Assembly: GCA_003280885.1 (NCBI GenBank)
Contig: QCDN01000005.1
Span: forward strand, 1 to 63,919
Length of the DNA stretch: 63,919 nucleotides
Direction: 5' to 3'
DNA from: Prochlorococcus sp. AG-355-J04
Lineage (GTDB): Bacteria; Cyanobacteriota; Cyanobacteriia; PCC-6307; Cyanobiaceae
The notes under the pieces were generated by a model. It ran no database searches. It was not told the DNA's origin and saw nothing but the letters and a program-made list of their open reading frames with translations. Position numbers and translations under genes: made by a program. Of the stretch, positions 52,099-54,158 are shown one piece after another. Position 1 is the first letter of the stretch; every line of letters begins with the position of its first letter.

Positions 52099-52272
52099 CT
52101 ACTCTTCTTCTTCTTCTTCTTCAATAGGATAAACAAATCCTTGAGCTTTCCCAGTTAAAACTGATTTACCTAAAGATATAGCTTTTTGAGCTGCTATAGC
52201 TGCTTTTCCTTTCCAAACAGCGTGCCTGTGGTTCCTTTTGCTCTTAGATTTTTTCTTCTTTGGTACAGCCAT
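52099..52272 (-). CDS. rpmF: 50S ribosomal protein L32
   Basis: 57 aa, ATG 52272. [20 protein letters not shown] is the typical L32 start; [20 protein letters not shown] follows. The C-terminus carries an unusual run of seven Glu encoded by a GAA repeat. Divergent from the FtsH paralogue. Confidence 0.95.
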
Positions 52273-52403: not shown

Positions 52404-54158
52404 GTGTTTAGATCAAAATTCTCATATTCAGATTCTAAATCAAGTTATTCTGATCTTCTAGAAGATATAGAGACGGGGAAAATAGAATCAATATTTTTCT
52501 ATCCAAGGCAGAGAGAAATTGATGTTCTGTATAAAAATGGGGATAAATTTAAAATACCTATCCTTTACAACGATCAATTAATCCTTGAAAAGGCTACTGA
52601 AAATAAGGTAGATCTAACTATTAATAATAGTAGAAAAGAAGCCTCAGCTGCTAATTCATTTGCTTCAATAAGTCTTTTCCTGATTTTCATATTAGCTATA
52701 GTCTTAATCTTGAGGAGTACATCAAAATTGGCTTCCAGAGCTTTTGGTTTTACCAAAAATCAAGCTAAATTTATAACTATTGATGATGTAGAAACGAGAT
52801 TCGATGATGTAGCTGGCGTCCCTGAAGCCGCTGAGGAATTAAAAGAGGTAATAACATTTTTGAAAGAACCAAAGAAATTTGAAAATCTTGGAGCAAGAGT
52901 TCCTAAGGGAGTTCTTCTAATAGGCCCACCAGGAACAGGTAAAACATTATTAGCTAAAGCAATTGCTGGTGAATCAGGAGTCCCTTTTCTCTCAATATCG
53001 GCATCAGAGTTTGTAGAACTTTTTGTTGGTGTTGGAGCAAGCCGAGTTCGTGATCTTTTCTCTAAGGCTAAGGAAAAATCTCCTTGTATAATTTTCATTG
53101 ATGAAATTGATTCCATTGGTAGACAAAGAGGGTCTGGGATCGGAGGTGGAAATGATGAAAGAGAACAAACCCTTAATCAGCTTCTAACTGAATTAGATGG
53201 TTTTGCTGATAATTCTGGGATTATTGTTTTAGCAGCAACAAATAGACCAGATATTTTGGATGCAGCATTATTAAGACCAGGTAGATTTGATAGGAAAATT
53301 GAAGTAATGCTTCCAGATTTAGATGGAAGAAAAAAAATTCTTTCAGTTCACTCACTTTCCAAACCACTTTCAAGCGAAGTTGAGTTAGGATATTGGGCTT
53401 CTAGAACAGTTGGATTTTCGGGAGCCGATCTTGCAAACTTGATGAACGAGAGTGCTATTCACTGTGCAAGAGACGAATCTAAATTAATCAGTGATCTTCA
53501 TATAGAAAATGCTCTTGATAAAATTACCATTGGCCTGAGAAGCTCATTAATAACTTCTCCTAATATGAAAAAAATTATTGCTTATAACGAAGTAGGTAGA
53601 GCAATTGTATCTGCTGCGAGAAATGGAATTGAATCAGTTGATAAGATTACGATTTTACCTAGATCTGGATCTATAGGAGGATATACAAAAATATGCCCTG
53701 ACGAAGATGCAATTTCTAGTGGATTGATTTCAAAAAAATTATTATTTTCAAAAATTGAAATTGCTCTAGCTGGAAGAGCAGCAGAAACGATAGTTTTTGG
53801 TGAAGGTGAAATTACACAATGCTCCATAAATGATATCTCTTATGCAACAAATATCGTAAGGGAAATGGTTACAAAATATGGATTTTCAATTATTGGTCCA
53901 ATTTCAATGGATTCTGATAATAATGAAATGTATTTAGGAGATGGATTATTTAGAAAAAAACCTCTCATAGCAGAAAATACCAGTTCTAGAATAGATAATG
54001 AAATTATAAATATTTCTAAAATTTCATTAAATAATTCAATAAAAATATTGAAAAAAAATAGGGTCTTACTAGATAAATTAGTTGATATACTTTTAAATCA
54101 AGAAACTATAGATAAAAAAGTTTTTAAATTAACTACTTCTAAATTGTTGAAAGTTTGA
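52404..54158 (+). CDS. FtsH-like AAA protein lacking the zinc-protease motif
   Basis: 584 aa from GTG 52404; an in-frame TAA lies just upstream (52395-52397). The AAA module is intact: Walker A GPPGTGKT (residues 174-181), Walker B FIDEID (231-236), [23 protein letters not shown] (278-297). The protease site should read HEAGH; here it is NEVGR (395-399), so both zinc-binding His are lost; the third ligand Asp in IND (about 477) remains. Only one membrane span (about 87-104) is found; the usual N-terminal span is missing. Probably a protease-inactive FtsH, like plant FtsHi proteins, acting as chaperone or unfoldase partner. Confidence 0.9.

Follow-up and report, generated by a model that had tools for sequence, protein, structure and literature searches.

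FtsH4 of Prochlorococcus, an FtsHi-like FtsH whose degenerate zinc site points to a single loss within the picocyanobacteria

Proteins that share the FtsH fold and retain its AAA+ motor, but in which the HExxH zinc site is mutated, have been described in plants and algae as FtsHi (Arabidopsis FtsHi1, 2, 4 and 5, and the Ycf2-FtsHi motor), and are presumed to be non-proteolytic (PMC8197885). Within the cyanobacteria one FtsHi has been reported in P. marinus SS120 (Mishra et al. 2019, PMC6460958; Mishra and Funk 2021, PMC8197885), and none in the chlorophyll-a cyanobacteria examined by Mishra et al. 2019 (PMC6460958). The passages of these papers that deal with the cyanobacterial protein name SS120 alone, and do not give its orthology, the breadth of its distribution, its origin, the order in which its site decayed or a basic residue at that site. 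Four FtsH isoforms have been named in Prochlorococcus, and the picocyanobacterial FtsH4 was grouped, by a link called 'less obvious than the others', with Synechocystis FtsH1 (Slr1390; PMC6300248). The latter forms part of FtsH1/3, a heterocomplex described as essential to Synechocystis, as degrading Fur in vitro and as implicated in the control of PhoU and NdhR (PMC11287208). Here we describe an FtsH gene from Prochlorococcus sp. AG-355-J04 (GenBank GCA_003280885.1), located on the 63,919-nucleotide stretch of contig QCDN01000005.1 that was analysed as a whole and is referred to below as the window.

An FtsH4 gene with a degenerate zinc site

The gene, its domains and its conserved neighbour occupy the following window positions:

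52404..54158, + strand: FtsH4-type putative pseudoprotease gene, an open reading frame with a GTG start encoding 584 aa; orthologue of MED4 FtsH4
52656..52712, + strand: single transmembrane (TM) helix predicted from hydropathy (residues 85-103); the first TM helix is absent upstream
52791..53528, + strand: AAA+ ATPase module including the lid (residues 130-375), from Pfam; motifs kept in 40 degenerate rows
52923..52946, + strand: Walker A, GPPGTGKT (residues 174-181), from sequence and alignment
53094..53111, + strand: Walker B, FIDEID (residues 231-236), from sequence and alignment
53529..54119, + strand: residues 376-572, Peptidase M41 region with a degenerate catalytic site, from Pfam and alignments
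53586..53600, + strand: residues 395-399, NEVGR where HExGH would be expected, from translation, alignment and DNA pattern
53598..53600, + strand: Arg399, aligned with the second zinc-binding His; Lys or Arg in all degenerate sequences read
53832..53834, + strand: Asp477, once the third ligand of the zinc; replaced by N, E or Q in some relatives
52099..52272, - strand: rpmF (ribosomal protein bL32), divergent neighbour in conserved synteny, read by eye

Pfam recognised AAA (159 bits) and M41 (152 bits) domains in the window protein along with the AAA lid and FtsH_ext, in keeping with the conserved AAA module of the initial annotation, and the motor motifs expected of an FtsH (Walker A and B, the pore loop FVG and the SRH arginines) are all in place. 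The HExxH zinc site that is likewise expected of the family is missing, NEVGR standing at residues 395-399 as had first been read from the letters, although its codons lie a few bases away from the positions originally assigned to them (53593-53607). With its AAA and M41 domains, mutated HExxH and conservation among genomes, the protein corresponds to the functional definition of an FtsHi. Not one histidine was found in its M41 region (residues 376-572), and hence there is no visible substitute zinc ligand or site. The whole protein nevertheless scored 647 bits against TIGR01241, the NCBIfam FtsH model, whose curated cut-off is 600; since this curated zinc-metalloprotease model accepts a protein that lacks the site, annotation derived from it will label the product an active protease.

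The window protein aligns over residues 11-572 with the best solved FtsH chains (7tdo and 7vhp). In an AlphaFold2 model of moderate confidence (43 sequences; mean pLDDT 76.4, pTM 0.59) the active-site helix (residues 386-405) is predicted to be intact, and the model also points to persistence of the M41 fold. Foldseek matches to the model included FtsH structures and the Ycf2-FtsHi motor, chains of that complex standing at ranks 7 and 10.

Several lines of comparison identify the gene as Prochlorococcus FtsH4, of the Synechocystis FtsH1 type. Each of 13 single-contig genomes encodes exactly four M41 proteins, three of which score strongly against the M41 model (229-257 bits) and one weakly (99-183 bits), and the weak one is always of the window type. 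Both published MED4 FtsH4 primers (PMC6300248) match one of our loci (L208, genome G149) with 0 mismatches, which identifies that locus as MED4 FtsH4, and it too reads NEVGR; the MIT 9313 primers of the same study gave no match among the 15 loci compared. In a 102-row FtsH tree the picocyanobacterial FtsH4 rows form one clade (SH-aLRT 100) that groups with one divergent FtsH each from 11 of 14 other cyanobacterial genomes (SH-aLRT 100); the tree holds no named Synechocystis sequence, and the label FtsH1 is taken from PMC6300248. In 28 of 29 orthologous loci the gene is preceded by a divergent start resembling that of rpmF, whether the zinc site is intact or degenerate.

An FtsH typically possesses two TM helices flanking an extracytoplasmic domain, an arrangement that the window protein does not share, although one or two helices are both described for FtsH in a review. 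By hydropathy a single helix was predicted in all 40 picocyanobacterial FtsH4 orthologues tested, again irrespective of the state of the site. Two were predicted in each of three proteins used for comparison, one each of the FtsH2, FtsH3 and Synechocystis-FtsH4 types. Among the 11 FtsH1-like relatives from other cyanobacteria the first helix was predicted in 7 and fell below threshold in the other 4.

Distribution and origin of the degenerate site

Orthologues were present in 117 of the 151 genomes drawn from the same genus, and the same 117 match a DNA pattern for NE[V/A/G]GR, the middle residue being A in one genome, G in another and V in the rest. Beyond that, the synonymous positions of the motif codons are highly variable, and the encoded residues are retained. 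Fixation of the motif across strains, the check that the initial annotation had called for, is thus seen in every carrier. When only genus genomes at least 90% complete are considered, 48 of 51 carry the motif; in the other three (G231, G235 and G260) a 5.4-kb query hit nothing but stretches of AAA paralogues plus two short fragments (31 and 44 bases). It recovered none of the neighbouring genes in these three, so the whole locus seems to be unassembled, and the missing FtsH4 is best explained as an assembly gap. NEVGR was also read in 80 of 80 named loci (79 by alignment, the 80th having its start cut by a contig end), 75 of which are titled Prochlorococcus (including MIT 9314 and MIT 9201) and 5 uncultured Synechococcaceae. 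These loci are the best 80 of 359 relatives, are 96-99% identical to the window over M41, and so reach to the level of the genus and leave deeper lineages out.

For those lineages we turned to 121 genomes of the family, of which 79 had the site read, 20 were searched for M41 only, and 22 had an orthologue match with the site unread. The counts rest on alignment reading and on the DNA pattern, and leave out three paralogues (L080, L083 and L084), a duplicate (L085) and three unreadable loci (L004, L140 and L183). Intact HExGH was found in 59 of the 79, all 59 of which also keep the Asp, and a degenerate site in the remaining 20. Twelve degenerate site sequences occur in this draw: NEVGR, NEVGK, NEAGK, NEIGR, YEIGR, HEIGK, HEAGR, HQIGK, QIIGK, QQVGR, RESAR and RNASK. 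The initial annotation had named HExxH in close relatives as a finding that would count against it: none occurs among the 117 carriers of the genus, and the intact site of other genera dates the loss of the zinc site without refuting the pseudoprotease reading. The genomes compared include G010, G078, G110, G117 and G095, which we provisionally take to be SS120, MIT 9211, NATL2A, MIT 9312 and MIT 9301, respectively. G010 reads NEAGK, and the published FtsHi of SS120 is very likely the same orthologue.

The other FtsH groups read differ in this respect. All 59 readable loci of the other three types (L086-L145) keep HExGH, and so does each of the 11 FtsH1-like relatives from other cyanobacteria. 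Just outside the degenerate clade lie small, AT-rich genomes whose site is intact (G052 and G031 among them, with loci of 34-37% GC), so low GC alone does not accompany the loss. As a separate observation, many contigs catalogued as viral (IMG/VR, L296-L345) hold long FtsH frames, and all 46 readable ones longer than 430 aa carry HExGH.

Because 59 of 79 orthologues keep HExGH, the loss is derived within the picocyanobacteria. With 12 site sequences in hand we considered several independent losses of the second His, an idea rejected when one clade proved to fit both the gene and the RpoB trees. In the FtsH tree the 18 degenerate rows fall into one clade by a quick method (SH-aLRT 97); in an FtsH4 tree computed without the motif columns 17 degenerate rows again form one clade (95/95, 96% of bootstrap trees); and an independent RpoB tree of 27 genomes, 16 of them degenerate (30 had been chosen, 3 of which lacked a usable rpoB), likewise recovers a single degenerate clade (100/97, 100% of bootstrap trees). 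The agreement of the FtsH4 and RpoB trees argues for one ancestral loss. On the RpoB tree the fewest changes required are 1 loss of the second His (7 changes among the letters H, K and R, six of them exchanges of Lys and Arg), 4 changes between kept and lost for the first His (8 among its letters), 3 for the Glu and 6 for the Asp, the states of the last having been entered by hand from alignments.

What replaced the second His is uniform. Residue 399 is Lys or Arg, and nothing else, in every degenerate sequence read, and this is the only alignment column that is K/R in 17 of 17 degenerate rows and not K/R in the 22 intact rows. As the exchange of Lys and Arg is an easy mutation, the fixed K/R is a strong hint of constraint and not a proof of it. 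The other site residues are less stable. The initial annotation had the catalytic Glu and the third-ligand Asp retained, which holds for Glu396 and Asp477 of the window protein and does not extend to its relatives: the position of Asp477 is N in 3 of 20 divergent loci of the same genus, and Glu and Asp are both lost in other genera, the Glu in the QIIGK, QQVGR, HQIGK and RNASK lineages.

A few genomes depart further. In the single-contig genome G003 the FtsH4 (L195, G003:C1:286700-288750) is far more decayed, reads RNASK, scores 99 bits for M41 and sits on an end branch of 1.9; its frame is still open, and Walker A, Walker B and the pore loop are present. Two drafts from other genera, G026 (99% complete) and G073 (94%), show three M41 proteins only, which may reflect either true loss of FtsH4 or an assembly gap.

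Selection on the motor and the M41 domain

Degenerate FtsH4 is under purifying selection, with dN/dS far below 1, and this selection is weaker than that on its active relatives. Within the genus (five pairs) dN/dS was 0.05-0.07 for AAA and 0.08-0.21 for M41, and in the other degenerate lineages (three pairs) 0.046-0.048 and 0.06-0.14. The corresponding values were 0-0.015 and 0.013-0.026 for the FtsH3- and FtsH2-type paralogues of the same genus (eight pairs), and 0.005-0.032 and 0.024-0.048 for FtsH4 of genera with an intact site (seven pairs). The ratio of M41 to AAA dN was 1.8-2.4 in dead FtsH4 and 0.8-7.6 in active controls; since M41 evolves faster than AAA in most active controls too, this gives no sign that the dead domain is specially relaxed. 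Of the 246 columns of the AAA module, 96 are invariant among the degenerate rows and 126 among the intact ones; of the 197 columns of M41, 14 and 43 are.

The motor motifs themselves are kept. All 40 degenerate rows compared, 20 of which are the most divergent loci of the genus, have Walker A (G[PSA]PGTGKT), Walker B (FIDEID), the pore loop (F[VI]G[VI]G) and the two SRH arginines; DGF is present in 38. Together with the orthologue counts and dN/dS, this bears out the initial proposal: the FtsH is conserved, retains its AAA motor and presumably does not act by proteolysis.

Possible roles of FtsH4

From these comparisons we infer that FtsH4 has lost proteolysis and retained its ATPase. The balance of evidence tips slightly towards a subunit competent as an ATPase but dead as a protease, whose most likely partner is an active FtsH3-type paralogue; a hexamer partner of an active FtsH was among the roles suggested in the initial annotation, and of these it fits best. 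The phylogeny shows a large Prochlorococcus clade descending from an ancestor in which the second zinc His had been exchanged for Lys or Arg; the clade takes in the genus of the window with MED4 and, by our assignment of genomes to strains, presumably SS120, MIT 9211 and NATL2A. On chemical grounds zinc would no longer be properly held and proteolysis would be lost. The comparison shows that the remaining site residues (first His, Glu and Asp) later drifted several times and that, at the level of sequence, selection kept the ATPase, the pore loop and the arginine fingers. FtsH4 would then assemble with the active FtsH3-type subunit into mixed hexamers, on the precedent of its relative in Synechocystis FtsH1/3, and in such a ring may bind substrate, hydrolyse ATP and pull, the sites of its partner doing the cutting, with fewer cutting sites per ring as the outcome.

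We put the chances of the mixed hexamer itself at about even. It is suggested by the nearest characterised relative, which works as FtsH1/3, and an active partner would explain how cutting sites could be lost without loss of the job. Against pairing, the first TM helix of the tested paralogues is absent from FtsH4, which could alter it; the MED4 ftsH transcript pool is described as common to isoforms 1-3 (PMC6300248); a figure legend of an ocean metaproteome study names FtsH1-3 only (PMC11262661); and the faster evolution of FtsH4 compared with its paralogues and with intact FtsH4 also fits loosened constraint. The decayed copy of G003, the drafts G026 and G073 with their three M41 proteins, and a tie to Synechocystis FtsH1 that its own source ranks as less obvious (PMC6300248) weigh on the same side. 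A bolder version, which we offer tentatively and would not expect to hold in full, is that the single exchange of His for Lys or Arg made a permanent pseudosubunit, in which the basic side chain would replace the zinc charge (by salt bridges to the old Glu and Asp or to the backbone) and hold the protease ring together; the resulting partly active heterohexamer would slow or re-target the turnover of nutrient regulators, and FtsH4 would be an independently evolved bacterial counterpart of plant FtsHi.

The same data can be read without a partner. Homohexamers of FtsH4 might unfold or extract membrane proteins as a chaperone or dislocase, which the complete set of AAA motifs in all 40 degenerate rows, the intact active-site helix of the model and a single-TM N terminus that might hinder mixing with the tested paralogues would suit; the heterocomplex formed by the nearest characterised relative (PMC11287208) speaks against it, and we consider this reading rather unlikely. 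We find it harder still to believe that FtsH4 is a relic, its activity no longer needed and the protein slowly decaying towards loss. Such decay would account for a dN/dS several-fold above that of the paralogues and of intact FtsH4, for the larger number of variable columns that both domains show relative to the intact group, and for the repeated losses of Glu and Asp; but all 117 carriers keep NE[VAG]GR, nearly all of the most complete genus genomes retain the gene and in the three exceptions the query found no neighbouring genes either, both domains have a dN/dS well under 1, and residue 399 has stayed K or R through repeated exchanges. Decay is therefore less likely than a mixed hexamer or an unfoldase, yet the long-branched RNASK copy of G003 and the missing fourth M41 protein of G026 and G073 favour it in some lineages.

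The two remaining alternatives carry little weight. Residual proteolysis through another metal site or catalytic arrangement might be entertained given that Glu396 and Asp477 remain in the window and that the M41 helices are predicted to persist, but it is highly improbable with no His in residues 376-572, a basic residue at a metal-ligand position and the Glu lost in four lineages. A sequencing or assembly error, against which the initial annotation had itself cautioned, or a pseudogene of one genome, is hardly credible when the motif recurs in all 80 named loci and in 117 of the 151 genomes drawn from the genus. For the genus as a whole a pseudogene was ruled out by dN/dS and open frames, though constraint is weaker than on the paralogues.

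An FtsHi-like pseudoprotease is as such a known kind of protein, and what is peculiar here is its picocyanobacterial origin and the fixed basic residue. Within the open-access literature searched, we did not find the clade-wide single origin, the order of decay or the fixed basic residue described. The initial annotation had likened the site to that of plant FtsHi. Descent from the plant proteins finds no support in a tree, built without plant sequences, in which the closest relatives are active picocyanobacterial FtsH4; unlike plant FtsHi, the degenerate state of Prochlorococcus arose inside the picocyanobacteria beside active FtsH4, which speaks for a separate origin. A further difference from the plant proteins as described is the Lys or Arg fixed at the second His. 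The protein-import role that had also been suggested, after the plant type, is unsupported for FtsH4. The active FtsH4 of other picocyanobacteria shares the rpmF-divergent locus, the one predicted TM helix and 48-56% identity, and differs in its intact HExGH and Asp; the homologous FtsH1-like group is set apart by its uniformly kept HExGH and by the first TM helix predicted in most of its members.

Prochlorococcus is an abundant photosynthesiser of the ocean, and FtsH4 is one of its four membrane protein-degrading FtsH machines. If confirmed, proteolysis would have been lost here in a subunit whose relative, together with FtsH3, is described as degrading Fur in vitro (PMC11287208). Intact (HExGH), half-lost (HEIGK, HEAGR) and further decayed (NEVGR, QIIGK, RNASK) sites stand side by side as a natural series, so that the question of why a pseudoprotease is kept becomes directly testable in bacteria.
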